Below are positions 993-11,149 of a stretch of DNA of 64,000 nucleotides, in pieces. Where the stretch lies: assembly GCA_016871515.1 (NCBI GenBank), contig VHDE01000011.1, positions 1 to 64,000 of the forward strand, written 5' to 3'. Position 1 is the first letter of the stretch. Each line of letters begins with the position of its first letter. The notes beneath the pieces are model-generated. The model did not search any database, was not told the DNA's origin, and saw only the letters and a program-made list of their open reading frames with translations. The position numbers and the translations under genes were made by a program. The DNA is from Verrucomicrobiota bacterium. GTDB lineage: Bacteria; Verrucomicrobiota; Verrucomicrobiia; Limisphaerales; SIBE01.

Positions 993-1649
993 GTGGAACT
1001 GATGGAGACTCAATCCAGAGCAGATTCTGACATCACAGCAGAAGCACTCATCAAAGAGCTGCAACGGCTGAGAGATGCTCATTGCGGTCAATGTCACACG
1101 CCGATTTGCCATCATCAGGTGCTCATGAGCATGGCGCTCGGTTTCAAGAATGCTCCGCATTGTGCGAATTGCATGGCCCGCAAGCTTGACTCGACTCCTT
1201 CAGATATTCTCGCGCCGTTAATGACCTACTTCGACGTTCGCGACTGCTATCGTGCCGCTTGGGCATGGGCGCACGAGCAGGAGAACGTCGAAGTCCACAA
1301 CGGAGTGCCAGACTGTCTTTCAACATGCGGAGTCGCTGCTTCGCCGCAAGAGTTAAATGCTGAACGCGAGAACGTTCAGAATACAAGTCTTGGAGTTCAC
1401 GCGAAGGAAACACCAAAACCGTTGGATGAGCTCGAAGCTCATTCTGACTGGGATGCGGGCGCGATGTCGTGCGGCGATCTCGTTCTGGAATTGCGCCTGC
1501 GTTTCCAGTCGATGCCACCGAAAACCATTCTCAAACTCTGCGCGTCGGACATCAGCGCCCCGCAAGACTTGCCGGCCTGGTGCCGGCTGACTGGACACAA
1601 GCTGCTCCGCGCGGAACCACCCCATTACTGGATACAACGAAAGGAATAG
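993..1649 (+). CDS. Cys-rich protein with C-terminal TusA-like sulfur-carrier domain
   Basis: This 218-residue protein (GTG start; ATG 1002 is equally possible) has two parts. The N-terminal part carries CGQC at 31-34, C39 and CANC at 57-60, spaced like a zinc- or iron-binding knuckle. A variable linker follows. The last 60 residues have the TusA fold pattern, including the conserved tail DLPAWCRLTGHKLL. TusA proteins carry persulfide sulfur on the Cys of a CPxP motif. Here the equivalent is C160 in MSCGDL, so the Cys is kept but both prolines are lost. The same variant occurs in the fusion protein at 2143-3708. A DsrE-like gene follows after 4 bp, which suggests one operon. The sulfur-carrier role is inferred from fold and context. 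The role of the Cys-rich domain is unknown. Confidence 0.7.
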   Translation: MELMETQSRADSDITAEALIKELQRLRDAHCGQCHTPICHHQVLMSMALGFKNAPHCANCMARKLDSTPSDILAPLMTYFDVRDCYRAAWAWAHEQENVEVHNGVPDCLSTCGVAASPQELNAERENVQNTSLGVHAKETPKPLDELEAHSDWDAGAMSCGDLVLELRLRFQSMPPKTILKLCASDISAPQDLPAWCRLTGHKLLRAEPPHYWIQRKE

Positions 1650-1653
1650 TATT

Positions 1654-2016
1654 ATGCCCGGAAAATTCCGCGTCAGTCTCACGCATGCGAAGGACAACTC
1701 GGACAAAGCCACGGTCGCGTTCGTGGTGCCCAACGCCGCGCTTGGCTCCGGCCAAGACACTCGCGTGTTCCTCAGCGTCGAAGGTGTTCGCCTCTCGCAA
1801 CAAGGGCATGCCGACGATATCCGCGAAGAAGGATTCGCGCCTTTGGCTGAGCTCATGGCTAACTTCGCCAAAGCGGGCGGCAAGATTTACGTCTGTTCGC
1901 CTTGCTTCAAGCGCCGAAAACTCGATGAGAACAATCTTATCGCGGGCGCGACAATTGTGGACGGCGCCAAGCTTGTCGAGTTCCTTGCCGATGGGAGCCG
2001 GTGTATTTCTTATTAA
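1654..2016 (+). CDS. DsrE/DsrF-like family protein
   Basis: This 120-residue protein fits the size and layout of the DsrE/DsrF/YchN fold: a short N-terminal strand, an alpha/beta core, then a loop with a conserved Cys near residue 81. Here the loop reads VCSPCFKRR, giving C81 and C84. It ends in GAKLVEFLADG, the usual last helix. Family members receive or donate persulfide sulfur, often from TusA. The start ATG has an AAAGGAA box about 8 bases upstream. It lies 4 bp after the TusA-like gene and ahead of the TusA/MetE fusion, so transfer of sulfur between these three proteins is a reasonable inference. The substrate is not known. Confidence 0.72.
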   Translation: MPGKFRVSLTHAKDNSDKATVAFVVPNAALGSGQDTRVFLSVEGVRLSQQGHADDIREEGFAPLAELMANFAKAGGKIYVCSPCFKRRKLDENNLIAGATIVDGAKLVEFLADGSRCISY

Positions 2017-2028
2017 TCCCAGTGTCAA

Positions 2029-2128
2029 GTAGCAGCCGAGGTAACGAGGCTCTGATTTGATTGAATAACCAGTTGTAATCTCGGTGCCAAGCACAAGCAT
2101 TTCAGAGCCTCGTTACCTCGGCTGCTAC
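2029..2128. repeat. 27-bp perfect inverted repeat with 46-nt loop
   Basis: Bases 2029-2055 (starting GTAGCAGCCGAGG) are the exact reverse complement of 2102-2128. Only 46 bases separate the arms. It lies just after the stop of the DsrE-like gene and before the TusA/MetE fusion. It could act as a transcript-stabilising hairpin or attenuator, or be a mobile palindromic element. Confidence 0.85.
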
Positions 2129-2142
2129 GACAGGTGATGTGA

Positions 2143-3708
2143 GCCATTCACTTTTGTGGACTTGTCTCGCAACATGCTTACGCTGCCGATGTCAGCTTTG
2201 ACGGCGGTGACCTCGATTGTGGCGGCGGACTCCTCCTCCTGATCCGCCGCCACATCGATCCAATGGACCGTGGTGGACTCTTGGAGATTCGCTCAACAGA
2301 CTCCTCCGTCGAGCAGGACCTTCCCGCGTGGTCCCGACTGACTGGCAACGAAATGGTTTCCTGGACGAAGCAAGGTGCGCAGCGAAGCTATCTCGTCTGC
2401 AAAGGGACACTTGCGGAACGATCGAAGCGTGTGACAGAGACCGTCCGTCTTCCGACGCGAAAGCAGCTCGTCGTCCCCGTCAGCATCTCTAAAAAACTTC
2501 CTGCGCCAATGACCGCGCCGAAGATTGCGCCGCTGTCAGTGATGGGAATTGGCAGTTGGCCACGTCCGCGCTGGATGGTGCAGGCTTTGCACGAGCGGCT
2601 GGAGGGACGGCTTTCTGAAGCGGACTTCCAATCTACGGCGGACGACGCTGTGCGATTGGCCGTCGAGGCGCAACTCCGCGCGGGCGTCGATGTCATAACC
2701 GATGGCGAACAACGCCGCGACAGCTATGCAAGTTTCGTGGGGGCTCTTCTGGATAACTGTCAATTGATCCCGCTCACGGATGTTTCGGCGATGGTGGATG
2801 AACCTGAGAAGTTCGAACGGGAGTTGCGCGCGCTTGACGTTCCGTCGGCCGAGGTGCGGCACCCAGTGGTTTATGGTCCGCTCGGCCGCAGCCGTTCCTT
2901 GTCGTTGCGCGAATTCGAGTTTGCCCGAACGCTGACCGACAAGCCGATCAAAGTCGCTTTGCCGGGACCGTATCTTCTCACGCGGACGATGTGGTTGGAT
3001 TGCCTCACGGATCGACCGTATCTGACGCGCGAGGCGCTGACGGCTGATGTCGTGCGGGTGTTGCGTGAGGAATTGCACGATTTGCTCGCCGCAGGTGTCG
3101 CGCTCGCGCAATTCGACGAACCGGTTTTGACTGAAGTCGTTTACGGAGGCGCCACGCGCCAGCGCTGTTTTATGTGCGGCGCCTTGAGCGAAAAGAAATC
3201 ATCCGAACAGGAACTCGCGTTTGCCGGAGACCTTATTAACGAAGTGGTCAAAGGTTTGCCCGAGGAGCGCGTCGCGCTTCACCTTTGCCGCGGCAACTGG
3301 ACACGCGATGAATCGGCGGCTCTGCGCGGCGATTACCGGCCGTTGCTAAGCCTGCTCAATCGTGTTCGTGTTGGAACGTTCTTCCTTGAACTTTGTACGC
3401 CGCGCGCGGGTGAGTTGGAAATTCTGAAAGGCCTCTCTCATGACCGTCGCATTGGTGTGGGCGTGGTGAACCAAAAGTTGGACAAGATTGAAGCCAAGGA
3501 AGAAATCGCAGCCAAGGTGCGAAGCGCGATTAACTTCTTAGGCCGACAGCGAGTGCTTTTGACTCCCGATTGCGGTTTTGCCACATTTGCGGATAACCCG
3601 GTGAGTTCGGCATCGATTCCGGAAAAGAAGCTGCGCGCGATTACCCAAGCTCGCGAGAGCCTCTCGGTTTCGACGGAGAAAACGGAAACCACTAATAGAC
3701 ACGAATGA
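2143..3708 (+). CDS. TusA-like domain fused to core-MetE (zinc methyltransferase)
   Basis: The reading frame is open from 2143. The first ATG in frame is 2263, but that would cut the TusA domain in half, because coding similarity to the paralogue at 993-1649 begins near 2185 (DVSFDGGDLDCGGG, then DLPAWSRLTGN). No ATG, GTG or TTG occurs in this frame between 2143 and 2263. From about residue 90 (numbered from ATG 2263) the protein is a core MetE barrel: GSWPRP, ITDGEQRR, FDEP, and all four zinc ligands H340 and C342 (HLC), E376 and C437 (DCGF). The N-terminal folate-binding half of classical MetE is absent. Core-MetE proteins transfer methyl groups to thiols such as homocysteine. Fusion to a sulfur carrier suggests that the acceptor thiol is protein-bound; this is inference. 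The C-terminal TETTNRHE is encoded by a dispersed repeat phrase. Confidence 0.8.
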   Translation, partial: AIHFCGLVSQHAYAADVSFDGGDLDCGGGLLLLIRRHIDPMDRGGLLEIRSTDSSVEQDLPAWSRLTGNEMVSWTKQGAQRSYLVCKGTLAERSKRVTETVRLPTRKQLVVPVSISKKLPAPMTAPKIAPLSVMGIGSWPRPRWMVQALHERLEGRLSEADFQSTADDAVRLAVEAQLRAGVDVITDGEQRRDSYASFVGALLDNCQLIPLTDVSAMVDEPEKFERELRALDVPSAEVRHPVVYGPLGRSRSLSLREFEFARTLTDKPIKVALPGPYLLTRTMWLDCLTDRPYLTREALTADVVRVLREELHDLLAAGVALAQFDEPVLTEVVYGGATRQRCFMCGALSEKKSSEQELAFAGDLINEVVKGLPEERVALHLCRGNWTRDESAALRGDYRPLLSLLNRVRVGTFFLELCTPRAGELEILKGLSHDRRIGVGVVNQKLDKIEAKEEIAAKVRSAINFLGRQRVLLTPDCGFATFADNPVSSASIPEKKLRAITQARESLSVSTEKTETTNRHE

Positions 3709-3728: not shown

Positions 3729-4676
3729 TTATCCCGAAGGCGAGTCCATGAGGGCGGCGAAACGAAGTCCGCGTGTGCTGACACGAAGATCACTAAATCC
3801 GAGTTCGCTCATCACCAGGCTGAAAATCGCCGCGCCGGTCAGAATGACGTCGGCTCGGTTCGGAGGCAGACCGACAATCTGGCGCCGTTCGGCCAAAGGC
3901 AAACGCCAAAGCCGTTCTTGTTGGAAGCGCACGTCTTCTTGTCCCAGCCGCACGGCATCGAGGGCGGCGCGGTCGAACGTTGCGAGGTTAAGCTGCATCC
4001 TCGCTAGAATTGTGGCTGTGCCGCCTGTGCCAACCAGTAAGACAGCTTTTGCCCCGAAACGCGCCAACGCAGGTTTCAGCGCAGGACTCAATTCTTTCGT
4101 CAGAAATTCGGTCAGCCAAACTGCGCAGGCGCACCAGTCCTTTTCCGAAGGGGGATCTGAGGGACGCAATTCTTCGAGCAAACGAACCGTTCCCAGTCGA
4201 AAACTTTGGCGAAAATGACAGACGGAGTTCTCACCGACTACAAATTCGCTGCTGCCGCCGCCGACATCGAGAACCACGATCGATTGAGCGGCAAGACTTG
4301 GGTCACTGGTGACTCCGGCGAAAACCCATTCCGCTTCCTGCTCGCCTGAAATGACCTCGGCCTGCAAGTCGGACGCCTGTTGTATCGAAGACATGAGTGC
4401 GCCTTGATTCCGAGCGTCTCGTGCGGCGCTTGTGGCAATCACGCGAATCGAAGCCGGATGCCAGTCCAGGGCTTCGTTCCGAAATTGCGCGACGGCGCGC
4501 GCCGTCTTGGCAATGGCGTCGGATTGCAGTAGATGGGTGTCGTAAAACCCTGCGCCGAGACGCGTTTGTTCGCTCTTCTCCAAGAGCGGCGTCACACAGC
4601 GTCCTGAAACATCCGCGACGAGAAGCTTCACGGAATTTGTGCCAACGTCGATGACAGCGCGGCGGGTTGGGCGCAC
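3729..4676 (-). CDS. Ppx/GppA family phosphatase
   Basis: This protein is related to exopolyphosphatase and pppGpp phosphohydrolase. The first ASKHA phosphate loop is AVIDVGTNSVKLLV at the N-terminus, and the second is VVLDVGGGSSEFV in mid protein, with the conserved GTVRL and GTGGTAT segments between and after. At about 315 residues it covers the two catalytic domains and lacks the C-terminal HD domain of long Ppx. I chose GTG at 4676 because the frame upstream to 4841 is encoded by dispersed repeat DNA and has no family similarity. It would degrade polyphosphate or (p)ppGpp. The neighbouring genes do not decide which. Confidence 0.85.
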   Translation of the reverse strand: MRPTRRAVIDVGTNSVKLLVADVSGRCVTPLLEKSEQTRLGAGFYDTHLLQSDAIAKTARAVAQFRNEALDWHPASIRVIATSAARDARNQGALMSSIQQASDLQAEVISGEQEAEWVFAGVTSDPSLAAQSIVVLDVGGGSSEFVVGENSVCHFRQSFRLGTVRLLEELRPSDPPSEKDWCACAVWLTEFLTKELSPALKPALARFGAKAVLLVGTGGTATILARMQLNLATFDRAALDAVRLGQEDVRFQQERLWRLPLAERRQIVGLPPNRADVILTGAAIFSLVMSELGFSDLRVSTRGLRFAALMDSPSG

Positions 4677-4689
4677 GGCGGGATCGTTC

Positions 4690-4880
4690 AAGAGGGGAAG
4701 GGGATTGAGTCTTTTCCCTCTCTTCGTGCGCGACGAGAAGCTTGGGGAGAGAATTTCTCCGAAACACATTGTCGCGCATTGCATCCATAAACGGTTTGGC
4801 AGGACAGCGCGTCCCGCCTGTCCTGCTTTGGGTGTACGCAAATGCTGGACGGGCGAGACGCCCGTCCTACGACACAGGTT
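4690..4880. repeat. Dispersed palindromic repeat, family A (GGACAGCGCGTCCCGCCTGTCC)
   Basis: A stem-loop is formed by the arms at about 4797-4825 and 4848-4875, around a spacer containing GTACGCAAATGCT. The same arms and spacer recur near 9472-9541 and 50089-50160, and partial copies occur near 57549-57667 and 59577-59650. It lies just upstream of the Ppx/GppA gene and extends that frame artificially at its N-terminus. Confidence 0.75.
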
Positions 4881-4933
4881 CGTGGGGGGGACACAAGCAT
4901 ACTGATGCGTTATCTTGATTGTGTCTGCTTACT

Positions 4934-5908
4934 TCATTTGGTTTCACGTCTGGCCAAAACAGCCGATCCCACAATGCCGGCGTCATCGCCCAGCTTCGAG
5001 GCGATAATCTCGATGCCTTTGGATGTGCCGCCGAGCGCGTAATCGTGGGCTGTCTCTACGATGATAGCCATCATCTCGTCCTCCAAAGCGTCGATAATGC
5101 CGCCGCCCAAAACGATCGTGTCCGGGTTGAGCAAATTAATCAGGTTGGCGACCGCAATGCCGGTGTATTCGGCGGCTTCTTCGACGATGCGTTCGACAAG
5201 TTTATCTCCGCGGCGAATGGCTTTGCGCAAATCCCCACTGCGCATGTCGGTCAGCTCGTCATCGAGCATTTCGGTGAGAATGGTTTTTTGGCCGGCCTTA
5301 ACGGCGGTTTGAATTTTCTGAAAAATGGCCTGCCGCCCGGCGACAGCTTCGAAGCATCCGCGGTTGCCGCAACTGCATTTTGGGCCTCCGACCTCGATGA
5401 TCATGTGGCCGATTTCACCAGCCGTGCGGTTGAATCCCGAATGCAATCTGCCATTGAGGATAAGACCTCCACCAATGCCTGTGCCCAAGAAAACTCCTAC
5501 GAGGTCGCGCGGTTTGGAGTGGAGTTCCGCTTCATAGACGCCCAGAGTGCAGATATTGCCGTCATTCTCGACGAACACCGGGAGATCCAACTGCTTCTCT
5601 AACTCCTTCTTCAGCGGCAGATCTTCCCACGCCAGATTCGGCGCGAAAATCACTTTGCCAGATTCCGGATCAACCGCGCCCGGAGCGCCCAGCCCGATGC
5701 CTTTCACCTTCTTGAGATCAAGATCGCATTCGTCTACGGCATCCTCGATGCAGCGGGCGATGCGTTCGACCACAGCTTCGGGGCCGCGCTGCGGCTTGGT
5801 GCTGATTTTCGTTTTGCCCAAGCACTTGAGTTGCGGAGTGAACACGCCCGCCAAAATCTTCGTGCCGCCGAGGTCAACCCCGACAAAGTGCTCTTTCGCT
5901 TCGGCCAT
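4934..5908 (-). CDS. ROK family sugar kinase (glucokinase-like)
   Basis: This 324-residue protein has the full ROK signature. The ATP phosphate loop is VDLGGTK at 11-17. The catalytic Asp is D116 in ENDGN, followed by the glycine loop GTGIGGG. The zinc site consists of H168 with the CSCGNRGC cluster (C178, C180, C185). The start MAEAKEHFVGVDLGGT gives a normal family length. ROK kinases phosphorylate glucose, N-acetylglucosamine, mannose or similar sugars on C6. Sequence alone does not fix the sugar. The amino-sugar genes nagB and nagA elsewhere in the window make N-acetylglucosamine a possibility, but they are not adjacent. It probably stands alone or forms a short unit with the downstream Ppx/GppA gene. 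Confidence 0.92.
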   Translation of the reverse strand: MAEAKEHFVGVDLGGTKILAGVFTPQLKCLGKTKISTKPQRGPEAVVERIARCIEDAVDECDLDLKKVKGIGLGAPGAVDPESGKVIFAPNLAWEDLPLKKELEKQLDLPVFVENDGNICTLGVYEAELHSKPRDLVGVFLGTGIGGGLILNGRLHSGFNRTAGEIGHMIIEVGGPKCSCGNRGCFEAVAGRQAIFQKIQTAVKAGQKTILTEMLDDELTDMRSGDLRKAIRRGDKLVERIVEEAAEYTGIAVANLINLLNPDTIVLGGGIIDALEDEMMAIIVETAHDYALGGTSKGIEIIASKLGDDAGIVGSAVLARRETK

Positions 5909-6337
5909 AAACGTAACAGTACTCGAGCTGTGGTTGTCGTTCCATCGATTGCCGACTCGCTGATGAAGCAGCTGAATCCGACCGTGAGCATCATCGCGGT
6001 CGCCCTGATTCTGACCCGCTGTTTACACCATAAAGTCGCCCGCTCGGTCAAATGGTTATTCCAGATCATCTCCCCATGAATCTGAAGGCAGGGCTGCGGT
6101 GCTCCGGAGCCTGCGAACAGCAATCGCGGCGTCGCAGCAACGCCGCCCTGCCAACGAAACGGTTCATGGGCAGCCTCTATCGCTTCGCGCACGCAATGGG
6201 ACCGGCACTCATACTACCCTCAGGACCGCAGCCTTTAGGCTGCAGAACGTTTGGAACTGCGAGAACAATCGTCGGCTTCTGCAGCCTAAAGGCTGCGCTC
6301 CTGAGCAAGCGGTTCAGGGGCAGAACTGCTGTGAGAA
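5909..6337. repeat. Intergenic region with two palindromic repeats
   Basis: No gene is seen. At 6071-6170 lies a repeat of family C (CCATGAA...GGGCTGCGGTGCTCCGGAGCC...GCAGCAACGCCGCCCTGCC...TTCATGGG). It recurs inverted at 17549-17645 and in a diverged form at 32661-32763. At about 6224-6310 a second palindrome has arms built on GCAGCCTTTAGGCTGCAGAACG and its reverse complement. The two genes flanking the region are both minus-strand. Confidence 0.75.
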
Positions 6338-7384
6338 TCACGGGTTGAGCCAACGAACAAACCAATCGACGGCCGTTCGGAGAGACTCAACAGTCACTTG
6401 ATGGCCTGTCTTCTCCTGAATCAAGAGATCAAATCGGTCTTTCGCCGCGGCCGATGCGTAAGCCAGCCTGGCCGCTTCCGCGCATTCCTGCACTCCTGGA
6501 AGCGGAGTACGCGCGTCTGAATCTCCATTGATAACAAGCAGCGGCCGAGGAGCGATCAATGGCAGCATCGCCGGGCCATCAAACTCTCCGTAAATGCCAG
6601 GAACAACGCTATCATAGAATTTGCGGACAAACGCTGCATCGATCGCAGTGACGCCCGCGTCCTTCGCCGCCGCATTCACAGCGTTCTGAATGCTTTGGAC
6701 GCGGGATTGCCACGCATTGTTGTCGAGCGCCCAGCGAAAACTCTGCACGCCAATACAAGGCACGGCAACGGCAATGCGGGAATCCACTGCGGCGGCAAGA
6801 TACGTTTCCATGCCGCCTTTCGAGAAGCCGATCACTCCGATCCGTTTCGCGTCCACGTCATCACGCGTTTCCAAATAATCGATTAGGCGCAGCACGTCCC
6901 AGACTGTGTCATAAAGGAATGGCCGCTCTTGCCCGGTTCGGTATCTGCGAACGATTGCTTCGAGATATTCATCATTGCCACGGCCTGAGCGACTGCGTTC
7001 GCCGTGGTATCGCCCATCAATCGAGACCGCGGCAAAGTCCTTCTTCGCCAATTCCTGCAAGTGCGACAACTGCGCCTCTTTATTGCTTCCAGTGCCATGC
7101 AGCACGATCACCACCGGCCGTCGTCCCTGCGACCGGGATCGTTTCAAGAGAAGCCCTGTTACGCGCTCTTGCGACTCCGATGCAAACGTGAAGTGGATTT
7201 GGGTCAGGCCGTTTGTTTCGGGCAAGGTTCGTGTCGTTGGGTTGAGAGGGACTTTAGGACGCTCGATGGCTTTAAGGAACGCTGCGCGCTTAGCTTCGCT
7301 TGCCCCGTGCGCGCCGGGCCAAGAAATGGAGAACATCAAAACTGAAATCAGGATGAAGTTGAGGTTGCGTTTTGAAACTTTCAT
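6338..7384 (-). CDS. Secreted alpha/beta hydrolase (dienelactone-hydrolase / acetyl-xylan-esterase type)
   Basis: The start at ATG 7384 gives MKVSKRNLNFILISVLMF, a clear signal peptide, and a 348-residue protein. Upstream residues of the longer frame show no family similarity. The hydrolase features are VIVLHGTGSNKE (oxyanion region), the nucleophile elbow GFSKGG with S188, an acidic residue in VINGDSDART, and a late His in EKTGHQ. This is a standard Ser-Asp-His set. The presence of a long lid before the Asp is like prolyl-oligopeptidase-type and acetyl-esterase-type members. The likely role is hydrolysis of an ester in the periplasm, for instance on polysaccharide. The substrate is not predictable. 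Confidence 0.8.
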   Translation of the reverse strand: MKVSKRNLNFILISVLMFSISWPGAHGASEAKRAAFLKAIERPKVPLNPTTRTLPETNGLTQIHFTFASESQERVTGLLLKRSRSQGRRPVVIVLHGTGSNKEAQLSHLQELAKKDFAAVSIDGRYHGERSRSGRGNDEYLEAIVRRYRTGQERPFLYDTVWDVLRLIDYLETRDDVDAKRIGVIGFSKGGMETYLAAAVDSRIAVAVPCIGVQSFRWALDNNAWQSRVQSIQNAVNAAAKDAGVTAIDAAFVRKFYDSVVPGIYGEFDGPAMLPLIAPRPLLVINGDSDARTPLPGVQECAEAARLAYASAAAKDRFDLLIQEKTGHQVTVESLRTAVDWFVRWLNP

Positions 7385-7867
7385 TTGTATTGGTTTCCAA
7401 GCAGAGCCCATGAGCCCAGAGCGTGCCGGATTCTGCATCGTAACAACAGCTCTATTTCTTGCTAGCGTCCCTCCGCCATGGATGCTGCCGGGCGGACGCA
7501 GGCTCACATCGAACGGTTAGAGGCTTTGATTCAAAAGAATCACGAATTGCTTCAGAGACTGCGGGCGGTGGTCGGATGTGGACGCGCTCTCCAGCGCGAC
7601 AAAGGATCGTCTTAAGAAAACCAAATTCGCTTCGAAGGAAATGCTACCGCCGAAAGCGCACCCCAAGCCCTCCCGGCGGACATCCGCTGAAAAGGTTCGC
7701 CGGCCAATCTAAATTAGAATTAGTTTCCCTGTGGTAGAGGGCCGGCCAACACGACACTTCAGATCAGACTTTGCCCCATCACGCAAGCACTCCCCCAACG
7801 GCAATGTCCCGACTTCGCCTTTAAGGTCTAAGGTTCTCCGGCGCTCACACGTTTCGGAATGCTCGGC
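7385..7867. other. Intergenic region with one possible small ORF
   Basis: A 45-codon plus-strand frame runs from ATG 7478 to TAA 7613-7615. It starts MDAAGRTQAHIERLEALIQ and continues as a heptad-like, coiled-coil segment. It could be a small protein or a fragment of a larger one, for example the start of an IS66-like transposase, but that is a weak guess. The rest (7616-7867) shows no recognisable feature. The gene on its left runs away and the gene on its right runs toward it on the minus strand, so promoter elements for the hydrolase may be here. Confidence 0.35.
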
Positions 7868-9241
7868 TCAATTTGAATCCACTTCGTATCCGAGTTCTTT
7901 GAAGCGTTGTATTTTGTAGGTCAAAGCGCGGCGGCTGATCCCAAGGACGCGCGCGGTTTCGGTGCGATTAAAATTGTGCTCCCGCAAGGCTTGGATGATG
8001 GCCAATCGTTCAATCTCCTCCAATCTGCTCGCGGAATTTGGAGCATTCACCGCCGATTCCTGAGTGGCTTGACGAATCCGCGCCGGCAGATGCTCTGGAA
8101 GAATCAGTTCGCCGTGTGACATGAGGCTGGCTCGTTCCATCGCATTTCGAAGTTCCCGGACATTGCCTGGCCACGAGTACTGTTCCACCGCAGCGGTGAC
8201 CGTCGCAGAGAATCTGGCTTTGCCATGCGTAAACTCCGCGACGAAATGGCTGGCCAGCGGAATAATATCTGCCTGACGCTCGCGCAACGGAGGAATAAAA
8301 ATTTCCATGACGTTCAGGCGATAGAATAAGTCTTCCCGAAACCGCCCCTGAGCAACCTCTTGTTCCAAGTTGCGATTCGTTGCCGCCAAGATGCGGGCAT
8401 TAGTCTGTATCTCCTTGTTGGATCCGATGCGTTGAAATCTTCCATCTTGCGTCACGCGCAACAGTTTGGCCTGCAGCCCAGGCGACATTTCAGCAATTTC
8501 GTCGAGAAGAATCGTTCCGTGATTCGCTTGTTCGAAACGTCCCACGCGTTGCGCGTACGCGCCCGTGAAGGCGCCTTTTTCATGGCCGAAGAGCTCGCTT
8601 TCCAAGAGCGCCTCGGGTATCGCGGCGCAATTGACTTTTACCAGCGGCCCCGAAGCTCGAGCGCTCCAGGCATGAATGACGTCCGCAACCACTTCTTTGC
8701 CCACACCGCTCTCGCCCGTGATCAAAATGCGGCTTTCCGAGGACGCGACCAACGACACGTCACGAAAGACGGCTTGCATGAGCCGACTGCGCGCGACGAC
8801 AGCGTCCGGCAGTTTTTTGCTTTCCGGAAGCTGTAACGCGTCGCAAGGCTCGATTCCAGTCGCCTTGCGGACGGAATTCAACAGTTCGTCGAGATCAACG
8901 GGCTTGGCCAAATAATTGACGGCCCCGTCTCGCATAGCGCCGACCGCCTCGCGAATGTCCGCATACGCGGTGACCAGCAACACCGGCAGAACCGAATGTT
9001 CCTGTCGAGCCCGCTTAAGGGTCTCCAACCCGGACATCCCCGGCATGCGCACATCCGAGATCATCATATCGATGTTGCCTGCGCGCAGAACTTCCAGCGC
9101 TTCTTCTCCAGATGACGCCGTGACGGTGTCGAACCGTTGGCTTTTAAGGAACGAATTGAGAAGACTGCGTTGACCGGCGTCGTCATCCACAATGAGAATC
9201 CGGGGCGCTTTGGAGGGCTGATGTCCGGCTTTGTGAGGCAT
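7868..9241 (-). CDS. NtrC-family sigma-54-dependent response regulator
   Basis: This protein has about 457 residues from ATG 9241 (MPHKAGHQPSKAPRILIVDD). Upstream residues are repeat-encoded and dropped. The receiver domain has DDD, the phospho-accepting Asp in MMISDVRMPG, T in LLVTAYAD and K in LAKPVD. The AAA+ domain follows, with Walker A GESGVGKE, the sigma-54 contact loop GAFTGA, Walker B TILLDEIAEM and an arginine-finger region. The C-terminal Fis-type helix-turn-helix is NRTETARVLGISRRALTYKI. It activates sigma-54 promoters when phosphorylated. The histidine kinase just upstream at 9668-11149 is its obvious partner. The targets could include the adjacent T2SS operon, which is inference. 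Confidence 0.95.
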   Translation of the reverse strand: MPHKAGHQPSKAPRILIVDDDAGQRSLLNSFLKSQRFDTVTASSGEEALEVLRAGNIDMMISDVRMPGMSGLETLKRARQEHSVLPVLLVTAYADIREAVGAMRDGAVNYLAKPVDLDELLNSVRKATGIEPCDALQLPESKKLPDAVVARSRLMQAVFRDVSLVASSESRILITGESGVGKEVVADVIHAWSARASGPLVKVNCAAIPEALLESELFGHEKGAFTGAYAQRVGRFEQANHGTILLDEIAEMSPGLQAKLLRVTQDGRFQRIGSNKEIQTNARILAATNRNLEQEVAQGRFREDLFYRLNVMEIFIPPLRERQADIIPLASHFVAEFTHGKARFSATVTAAVEQYSWPGNVRELRNAMERASLMSHGELILPEHLPARIRQATQESAVNAPNSASRLEEIERLAIIQALREHNFNRTETARVLGISRRALTYKIQRFKELGYEVDSN

Positions 9242-9667
9242 GGGCGTAACGTCCTGAACTTGCCTTGACTGTTCGCGGGACGCAACCCGTAATCGAACGC
9301 GGATCATCTTGCCATGAACCTGCGGCGGGTAGGGCCCGTCATTCCGTGCGCGCCGCGAAAGACTTGCTTCATGGTGATGCCCGGCGCGCACGGAGTGACG
9401 CTTTAGGTTCATGGGCGCAATGCGCGAAAGTCTGTTTCGGGGAAATCTCTCCCCATGAACTTGGCAGGACGTCCGGCCTGTCTTGCTTTTGATGTGCGAT
9501 GTACGCAGATGCTCGACAGGCGGGACGCACTGTCCTACGAGAGGGTTTCCTGGGGAGGATTAGGGAGAGGGATCCGTGCAGCGGGCTCGCCAACGTCGGG
9601 ATTCACGCCGGGTCGAACGCTCAGCCGACTACAAGTCGGCGATACAGCAGCAGAGTGAAACTCGGCG
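9242..9667. repeat. Repeat-filled gap between kinase and regulator genes
   Basis: This gap holds a short palindrome near 9330-9400 (CCCGTCATTCCGTGCGCGCC and GGCGCGCACGGAGTGACG). It also holds a family A stem-loop at 9472-9541 and a family B repeat at 9625-9675 (CGACTACAAGTCGGCGATACAGC...GCGCTACGACG). No gene is seen. The kinase and regulator are thus separated by three unrelated repeat units. Confidence 0.7.
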
Positions 9668-11149
9668 CTACGACGAACCGGTTCTGCTCGACAGCTTGAG
9701 CCGGCTCAGGCGGAAGATGGCGCCTCGCGGCTCGTTCGGCAGGCATTCGATATCCCAGCCATGCGCCAGCACAATCTGCTGAACGATCGCCAGTCCGAGT
9801 CCGGTGCCTTTTTGATGGGTTGTGAAGTAAGGCTTGAAAATATCGGTGCGATGTTCTGGGGCGACGCCCGGACCGTTATCGCGCACTTCGAGGTAGGCGC
9901 CGGAACCGTTGAGTTTCCCAGCCACGACGCGAATTTCACCTTTGGCATCGGCAGCTTGGATAGCATTGATCAAAAGGTTGAACAGCACTTGCCGCAGCAT
10001 CTGTTCATCGGCCTCGACGCTGAGGCCATTGACGGATGCGCTGAGCTGAATGCTTTTGTCTTCGACATCGCTGGCGAGCGCGCGTGCAACGTCGCTCACG
10101 ATAGCATTGAGGCTCACCGGCGCTCGACGGACTTCTCGAGGTTTGGAGTAGTTGATGAATTCGTTCAATTGGGCGGTGACCCGGTCCACTTCATCGGCAA
10201 TCTCGCGCGATTTCTGGCGAACACTCGAGGAAGCATCCGGCTCCTTCGAAATCATGTGCGCGACGCCGCGAATAATGTTCAACGGGTTTCTCGTCTCGTG
10301 CGCCAAGCCGGCGGCCGCCAAATTCATGTCGCGGAGATGCGAATTCATTTCGCTGGCGCGGAGCAAGCGCATCTGCAATTCAGCCGACGTTTCGAGATTG
10401 CGCCACGCAAAGCCGAGACCTAGCACGGCGACACCGGCAAAGGATGCGATCACCCAACGCAACCAAATATCTTGCACGTTAGCAGCGCGAAATAATTCCG
10501 TCGGAATGACAATTGCGATGTAATGGGCCCCTTTCTCCGCGCGCATGGCTTCCCATTCCTTTTCGTCCATCCATCCTCGTCGGCGTTCGCCGTCGCCGGG
10601 CCCGGGGCGGCGCGGAGAGGGATTCGTTGTCGAAAGCGTGCCGCTGGGAGTGTTGGTTGATCCGGGGTTATTCTGGCGGCGAGGGCCGCGGGGAGGGCCT
10701 GAACTGGGCAGGACGACGGTAGGTTGGCCGGTCTCGCCTTCCCGCGCCAGGTGCGCTCCCAGATCGACAAGATTGACCAGGGTAAGGCTCCGGGCATCCC
10801 ACCGCTCGGTTTGCGCGATTCCTCTGGTGTTGATGTCAATCGGCGCGCCCGCAGAGATGACAACATCCCCAGCTTTGTTGAGCAGCGCTACAGAAGTCAG
10901 CTCGCCTGGCTTGATCAACTCTTTCAAAGCGGATTCAATGGGGTCCTGCGGAACGGTGCCCCACCAACGTCGCTGAGAGCGGATGACCAGTCCAAGCGTC
11001 GTTGTAATGTCGCGGCCGCGGTTAATGAGAGCAGAACGCGCCGCCTCTTTGACGCGGTTGTGCTCGACGGTTTGCCAGCCGACAATCATGACCCAGACGG
11101 CGAAAAGCGATCCATAGACCACGGACTTGGTTTTTACGCCAGTGGGCAT
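9668..11149 (-). CDS. Membrane sensor histidine kinase (NtrB/ZraS-like)
   Basis: This protein has 493 residues. A first membrane helix lies at about 10-25 (VVYGSLFAVWVMIVGW). A periplasmic sensor segment to about 235 includes a Pro/Gly/Arg-rich low-complexity stretch near 150-195. A second membrane helix (WVIASFAGVAVLGLGFAW) follows at about 232-250. The H-box is GLAHETRNPLNIIRG, followed by the N-box LLINAIQAA and the G-boxes DNGPGV and GTGLGLAI. The H-box form HETRNPL is typical of NtrB/ZraS-type kinases that pair with NtrC regulators. The regulator gene lies immediately downstream on the same strand. The ligand is unknown. Confidence 0.93.
   Translation of the reverse strand: MPTGVKTKSVVYGSLFAVWVMIVGWQTVEHNRVKEAARSALINRGRDITTTLGLVIRSQRRWWGTVPQDPIESALKELIKPGELTSVALLNKAGDVVISAGAPIDINTRGIAQTERWDARSLTLVNLVDLGAHLAREGETGQPTVVLPSSGPPRGPRRQNNPGSTNTPSGTLSTTNPSPRRPGPGDGERRRGWMDEKEWEAMRAEKGAHYIAIVIPTELFRAANVQDIWLRWVIASFAGVAVLGLGFAWRNLETSAELQMRLLRASEMNSHLRDMNLAAAGLAHETRNPLNIIRGVAHMISKEPDASSSVRQKSREIADEVDRVTAQLNEFINYSKPREVRRAPVSLNAIVSDVARALASDVEDKSIQLSASVNGLSVEADEQMLRQVLFNLLINAIQAADAKGEIRVVAGKLNGSGAYLEVRDNGPGVAPEHRTDIFKPYFTTHQKGTGLGLAIVQQIVLAHGWDIECLPNEPRGAIFRLSRLKLSSRTGSS

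Follow-up and report, generated by a model that had tools for sequence, protein, structure and literature searches.

A TusA domain is fused to a core MetE domain in a three-gene locus

The window analysed here, a stretch of 64,000 nucleotides, is the start of contig C11 (VHDE01000011.1) in the 5.7-Mb metagenome genome of a Verrucomicrobiota bacterium (G000). Pfam profiles identify three neighbouring genes on its plus strand between positions 993 and 3708: a tusA-like gene, a dsrE-like gene and a gene in which a TusA domain is joined to the zinc methyltransferase core of MetE (hereafter, the fusion). The tusA-like gene (993-1649, 218 residues) scores 29.7 bits against the Pfam TusA cut-off of 28.6 and encodes a TusA domain at about 1446-1643, with one Cys in MSCGD and another in PAWCR, preceded by a region (993-1445) that includes a Cys-rich N-terminal domain at about 1035-1316. 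The dsrE-like gene (1654-2016, 120 residues) scores 57.8 bits with Pfam DsrE and carries the motif YVCSPCFKRRKL, in which the CxxC pair reads CSPC. The fusion lies in an open frame of 521 codons (2143-3708), and the same fusion is found at 73% identity in G037, a genome from the window's taxonomic order, and in named loci elsewhere. Scores and coordinates agree with the initial annotation of this DNA, which had described adjacent plus-strand genes for a Cys-rich protein ending in a TusA-like domain, a DsrE-like protein with CxxC and a TusA-core-MetE fusion.

The TusA domain of the fusion (2188-2406) is recognized by Pfam TusA with an E-value of 3e-5 and 24.2 bits, slightly below the cut-off, and its key Cys (codon 2218-2220) lies in DCGGG, which reads DCGNG in most relatives. 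As the initial annotation correctly stated, CG[D/G] replaces CPxP in both TusA domains of the operon; among relatives CPxP is likewise absent, the Cys being followed by G(D/E) in the first TusA and by G(N/G)G in the fusion. The key Cys is conserved in 84 of 84 first TusA proteins and, within DVSFDGGDLDCGNG, in 77 of 77 fusion sequences. The accompanying claim that each domain keeps one Cys held for this residue but understated the rest, as a second conserved Cys (in WCR) is usual, occurring in 83/84 first TusA proteins and 76/77 fusions, where the window's copy alone has Ser. The two Cys residues of the DsrE CxxC motif are present in 80/80 and 79/80 relatives.

The core MetE domain of the fusion (2533-3627) scores 107.3 bits with Pfam Meth_synt_2. 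Its four zinc ligands had been named correctly from the sequence as H340, C342, E376 and C437, counted from the ATG at 2263; in the numbering of alignment A5 they are H365 and C367 (in HLC, 3280-3288), E401 (3388-3390) and C462 (in PDCG, 3571-3573), and all are invariant in 55 sequences. Equally invariant in these sequences are the counterparts of three substrate-binding residues of Escherichia coli MetE, namely S123 (of IGS, 2554-2556), E174 (of DGE, 2707-2709) and D310 (of DEP, 3115-3117), which correspond to S433, E484 and D599; S433 binds the carboxylate, and E484 and D599 the amino group, of homocysteine or methionine (PMC7857596). An AlphaFold model of the fusion (mean predicted local distance difference test score, pLDDT, 82; predicted template modeling score, pTM, 0.78; N-terminal 14 residues of low confidence) has as its best PDB match the core methionine synthase MesD with bound selenomethionine (3RPD, E-value 1.9e-22), followed by full MetE. 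The fusion does not reach the curated cut-off of any methionine-synthase equivalog, the best NCBIfam score being 156.7 against a required 406 (PRK04326). Because the zinc and Ser/Glu/Asp ligands are invariant and the model matches MesD and MetE, we suggest that homocysteine or methionine is probably still the substrate at the zinc of the fusion, in a protein that lacks the folate-binding half and has gained a carrier domain.

The operon is widespread and carries two alternative cassettes

GTDB species genomes were scanned, and fusion loci were fetched by a pattern-based retrieval that is biased towards the conserved TusA motif; genes in the neighbourhoods were called by codon-position GC scoring, a procedure that does not recover all of them. 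The fusion is present in at least 80 loci from about ten phyla, with identities of up to 73% to that of the window, and its closest named match is from Pedosphaera. The record titles span Verrucomicrobiota, Pseudomonadota (alpha and beta), Chloroflexota, Planctomycetota, Latescibacterota, Gemmatimonadota, Armatimonadota, Actinomycetota, Rokuibacteriota, Eisenbacteria and 'Deltaproteobacteria'. Wherever all three genes were found, the order tusA-dsrE-fusion was kept in 76 of 80 loci, and G037 has the same genes in the same order (identity 73% for the fusion, 79% for DsrE and 43% for the first TusA). The two doubts raised with the initial annotation, that the fusion might be found only once or be a chimera of mis-assembled reads, are dispelled by these independent loci and the G037 copy. 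No Pfam family matches the Cys-rich N-terminal domain of the window's first protein, and this domain is joined to the first TusA in no more than 7 of the 84 loci, those of Verrucomicrobiota, Planctomycetota and a deltaproteobacterium.

The spacing between dsrE and the fusion falls into three classes, below about 0.4 kb, 2.1-2.7 kb and about 5 kb, and two alternative cassettes occupy this interval: a PhnD/E/C-like ATP-binding cassette (ABC) transporter, or a pair of proteins that we call c5 and c3. Among 84 loci, 22 carry c5+c3, 17 carry PhnD, 2 carry both and 43 neither. The c5 protein (about 180 residues) is a membrane protein with paired Cys residues and a conserved CxxCLAP motif, MerT-like by eye. 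In 24 loci it accompanies the operon together with c3, a beta-rich protein of about 510-550 residues with a signal peptide and a C-terminal anchor; examples of the pair are L107 5904-7968 and L064 5878-7972. Neither has a Pfam or NCBIfam match, and the one match from a fold search with c3, to an S-layer domain (DUF1608), was weak, had a low template modeling score and was set aside. That the cassettes have a transport role, apparently in uptake, is about as likely as not. The recurrent operon neighbours are confined to TusA, DsrE, PhnDEC-like proteins, c5/c3 and a transglutaminase; no corrinoid protein is among the recurrent neighbours of the fusion loci, and genes for tRNA thiolation or sulfur oxidation do not recur near the operon.

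The transglutaminase-like protein is secreted, and its gene lies just 5' of the operon in L025 (9111-10190), L038, L040, L041, L058 and L116 (9481-10587), in hosts from Verrucomicrobiota, Planctomycetota, a deltaproteobacterium and Paracoccus.

The fusion tracks SelD-dependent selenium use

The co-occurrence of the fusion with selenium genes was determined over 50 whole host genomes, many of them incomplete metagenome genomes. SelD was above cut-off in 48 of the 50 and SelB in 43. Of the seven hosts lacking SelB above cut-off, five encode MnmH (selenouridine synthase), while G433 carries a piece of SelB at the end of a contig and G445 has SelD only; of the two hosts lacking SelD, G435 encodes both SelB and MnmH, and the other is G433 with its SelB fragment. 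In Burkholderiaceae, where SelB was used as the discriminator because SelD is too common, the fusion occurs in 10 of 250 genomes, all ten with SelB compared to 112 of the 250 overall (Fisher P = 2.6e-4, phylogeny ignored). In the window's order, SelD accompanies the fusion in 3 of 3 genomes (G000, G003 and G037, the evidence in G003 being a contig-end fragment only) versus 18 of 40 overall. In-frame TGA codons in SelD occur among these fusion genomes, including the window's own, whose SelD has the TGA at its active-site position (SSCAG-TGA-ASKL).

Physical linkage to sel genes is seen in separate lineages. In L062 (Bradyrhizobiaceae), selD directly follows the fusion and is itself followed by selB and selA. 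On a Paracoccus plasmid the order is selB, a UGSC-family selenoprotein gene, a SufS-type Cys desulfurase gene, tusA, dsrE, c5, c3, fusion, selA and trxB, and in a betaproteobacterium (L079) selB lies 3 kb from the fusion. The selenium link of the operon is thus well supported by gene content and neighbourhood. The fusion tracks SelD-dependent use in general, and since it follows selenocysteine and selenouridine users alike, this pattern would fit a factor that supplies SelD from upstream better than one specific to selenoproteins. The initial annotation had proposed a carrier-methyltransferase system acting on sulfur: the system is real, recurrent and undescribed in the literature searched, but the co-occurrence with SelD and SelB and the sel neighbourhood point to selenium as the element.

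As a side observation, the UGSC-family selenoprotein gene on the Paracoccus ferrooxidans plasmid pFER4 (L116 8508-9077) has been deposited as two hypothetical proteins because its UGA was read as a stop.

Relation to known carrier and methyltransferase systems

The literature searched contains no description of a TusA-MetE fusion system. The fusion shares its H-C-E-C zinc site, its Ser/Glu/Asp homocysteine ligands and the lack of a folate-binding N-terminal half with the core-MetE families MesA to MesD (Price et al. 2021, PMC7857596; PMC7005905), of which MesD gives the best structural match, but differs from them in the TusA domain at its N-terminus, whose Cys is invariant, in its operon with tusA and dsrE and in its tight association with selenium, none of which is reported for Mes proteins in the accessible parts of these sources.

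A biochemical precedent comes from the type I mlp clusters. Their zinc methyltransferases are members of the UroD/MetE superfamily, and one of them methylates selenide in vitro; of the species that have such clusters, 87% also make selenocysteine (PMC10418091, PMC11097638). Genetic precedent for the use of a methyl-selenide, dimethylselenide, is provided by SdmABC of Methanococcus (PMC10418091, PMC11097638). These systems resemble the fusion operon in their methyltransferase superfamily and in their tie to SelD- or selenocysteine-containing genomes and methylated selenium, yet they rely on corrinoid proteins, have H-C-C zinc ligands and occur mostly in anaerobes (PMC10418091, PMC11097638). By contrast, the recurrent neighbours of the fusion include neither a corrinoid protein nor an MtaA-like methyltransferase but the TusA/DsrE carriers, and aerobic genera (Duganella, Bordetella and Azospirillum) account for many of the hosts.

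For the carriers, precedent exists in YedF, a TusA+DsrE fusion accepted as a candidate for a selenium protein (PMC5322559), and in DsrE-like selenoproteins with UxxC (PMC13188914). YedF (TIGR03527), which occurs with YedE (PMC5322559), resembles the operon in tying TusA and DsrE modules to SelD-dependent selenium use; it is, however, a single fused protein that keeps CPxP, whereas here the modules are separate genes with CG(D/E) or CG(N/G)G and a methyltransferase is added, and TIGR03527 is not among the NCBIfam matches of the window's proteins. The TusA/DsrE (TusBCD) persulfide relay likewise uses carrier domains with a conserved Cys, from which the operon departs in its replaced CPxP and in the absence of recurring tRNA-thiolation or sulfur-oxidation genes. 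Finally, the PhnD-, PhnE- and PhnC-like subunits that recur in the operon are reminiscent of the PhnCDE phosphonate and TIGR04553 transporters; the PhnD-like protein nevertheless falls below both the PhnD equivalog cut-off and that of TIGR04553 (79.9 of 250 bits).

A proposed role in selenium supply

What the sequence comparisons establish is the operon, its conservation, its invariant residues and its co-occurrence and linkage with sel genes. Building on these, we propose that the operon probably serves to collect selenium, perhaps from a methylated form, by a route not yet described, instead of taking part in ordinary sulfur or methionine chemistry. That the TusA/DsrE carriers have selenium as their cargo seems likely, and a selenium-supply or acquisition module acting upstream of SelD is, by a smaller margin, the reading that we favour; homocysteine as the methyl acceptor is a balanced guess, and the direction of the reaction, demethylation of methyl-selenium, is advanced tentatively, on analogy with known systems, as somewhat less than an even chance.

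In this proposal, the TusA-like and DsrE-like proteins would carry selenium, in place of sulfur, as protein-bound selenide or perselenide, and the fusion would act as a zinc methyltransferase that receives the chalcogen substrate from its own TusA domain. The PhnD-type ABC transporter or the membrane and secreted pair, present in about half of the loci, would import the compound; a PhnD-type transporter would fit selenite, methylseleninate or a similar small oxyanion. The methylated selenium compound would be held on the TusA Cys of the fusion as Cys-S-Se-CH3, which general chemistry gives as the expected product of methylseleninate or methylselenol with a thiol. Zinc-activated homocysteine would take the methyl group to form methionine, the residual Cys-S-Se(-) would be handed along TusA/DsrE to SelD, and SelD would convert it to selenophosphate for selenocysteine or selenouridine. 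Taken in full, as a corrinoid-independent assimilation of methylated selenium in aerobic and anaerobic lineages, with a dedicated importer, a TusA-held Cys-S-Se-CH3 and its demethylation with homocysteine by the fused MetE domain to methionine and carrier-bound perselenide for SelD, the scheme is speculative and rather less likely to be right than wrong.

Recent reviews state that prokaryotes have no identified system for specific, high-affinity uptake of selenium (PMC9312934, PMC13188914), and the known methyl-selenide route is corrinoid-dependent and found mainly in anaerobes (PMC10418091, PMC11097638). If the proposal is true, the operon would provide the first known case of a selenium-specific importer in a prokaryote; present in about ten phyla, tracking SelD and supplying candidate importers, carriers and a methyltransferase, it would make the gaps in uptake and in methyl-selenide use testable by single gene deletion. 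The fusion would then also be a carrier domain joined to an enzyme that acts on its own cargo, and the current annotation of fusion genes as methionine synthases would be corrected.

Several observations weigh against a selenium role. The co-occurrence counts and P values ignore phylogeny; SelD does not discriminate in Burkholderiaceae, where its base rate is 194 of 250 genomes (78%, P = 0.075), and its enrichment in the window's order is not significant (3/3, P = 0.083). Most loci lack any sel gene within 8 kb, linkage being limited to a minority (L062, Paracoccus and L079). Membership of the PhnD-like protein in TIGR04553, a putative selenate family, is ruled out by its score. None of the three operon proteins is a selenoprotein, a possibility excluded by the lack of any in-frame UGA (selenocysteine codon) at the Cys positions of the TusA, DsrE and fusion genes in 84 loci. 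Part of the chemistry, or the wider MetE-like family, may moreover concern methylated sulfur, because a stand-alone relative of the fusion's core (40% identical) occurs in G274 (contig C14; L127 5711-8849) where neither a TusA nor a selenium gene was seen within 16 kb; there it forms a three-gene operon with an acyl-CoA-dehydrogenase-like protein and a PhnD-like protein without an obvious signal peptide, which may make up a pathway that handles methylated sulfur or selenium.

The same G274 operon lends weight to a sulfur system, in which TusA and DsrE would carry persulfide sulfur, the fusion would methylate or demethylate a protein-bound thiol or persulfide, as in a methanethiol-type salvage, and the selenium link would be a side effect of lifestyle. 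TusA and DsrE are indeed sulfur-carrier families and MetE acts on sulfur, but sulfur alone can hardly explain SelD in 48 and SelB in 43 of 50 hosts together with linkage to selA, selD and selB in separate lineages, and we consider this explanation unlikely, if the strongest of the alternatives. A reversal of the proposed reaction, in which TusA-bound selenide would be methylated to a volatile or less toxic methyl-selenium for detoxification or overflow control, could draw on the same residues and carriers and has a parallel in the Mlp enzyme that methylates selenide from methylcobalamin in vitro (PMC10418091). Detoxification, however, should need no SelD, import-type cassettes travel with the operon and the homocysteine/methionine ligands are kept. 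In MetE-type enzymes, methyl transfer towards homocysteine is in general the favoured direction, which also speaks against this reversal, and its probability appears low.

The least probable account, to which we give very little credence, is that the fusion represents a fifth Mes family, a folate-independent methionine synthase that takes its methyl group from an ordinary donor, for example a methyl-corrinoid protein, and uses its TusA domain for docking only. The nearest fold is that of MesD and the zinc and homocysteine ligands are conserved, as this account would expect; against it stand the recurrent neighbours without a corrinoid protein, the invariant Cys, for which docking would have no need, and the two other core-MetE paralogues that the window's genome already encodes.

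Features of the window's own copy and its surroundings

The window's fusion gene departs from its relatives at its 5' end. Relatives start with ATG (TTG in G037) exactly 33 nucleotides 5' of codon 2188, which begins the DV of the TusA domain, and the window has TGT at this site. After the TGA at 2140, the first ATG, GTG or TTG in frame is the ATG at 2263, which lies past the TusA Cys codon. The TusA domain is nonetheless under strong purifying selection, with 0.085 nonsynonymous (dN) and 1.26 synonymous (dS) substitutions per site relative to G037 over codons 1-25. A near-cognate start, a small assembly indel or recent decay are possible explanations of the missing start codon. Between dsrE and the fusion lies an inverted-repeat element, similar to repetitive extragenic palindromic (REP) elements, of 100 base pairs (2029-2128), with arms of 35 nucleotides that are 91% complementary; it has 36 full or partial matches in the window's genome, spread over many contigs.

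In one of the other loci (L031), a second copy of the Cys-rich N-terminal domain is encoded 3' of the fusion. In the window, the region 3' of the operon (3729-11149) encodes on the minus strand a Ppx/GppA phosphatase, a ROK kinase, an alpha/beta hydrolase, an NtrC-type regulator and a histidine kinase, apparently unrelated to the operon.

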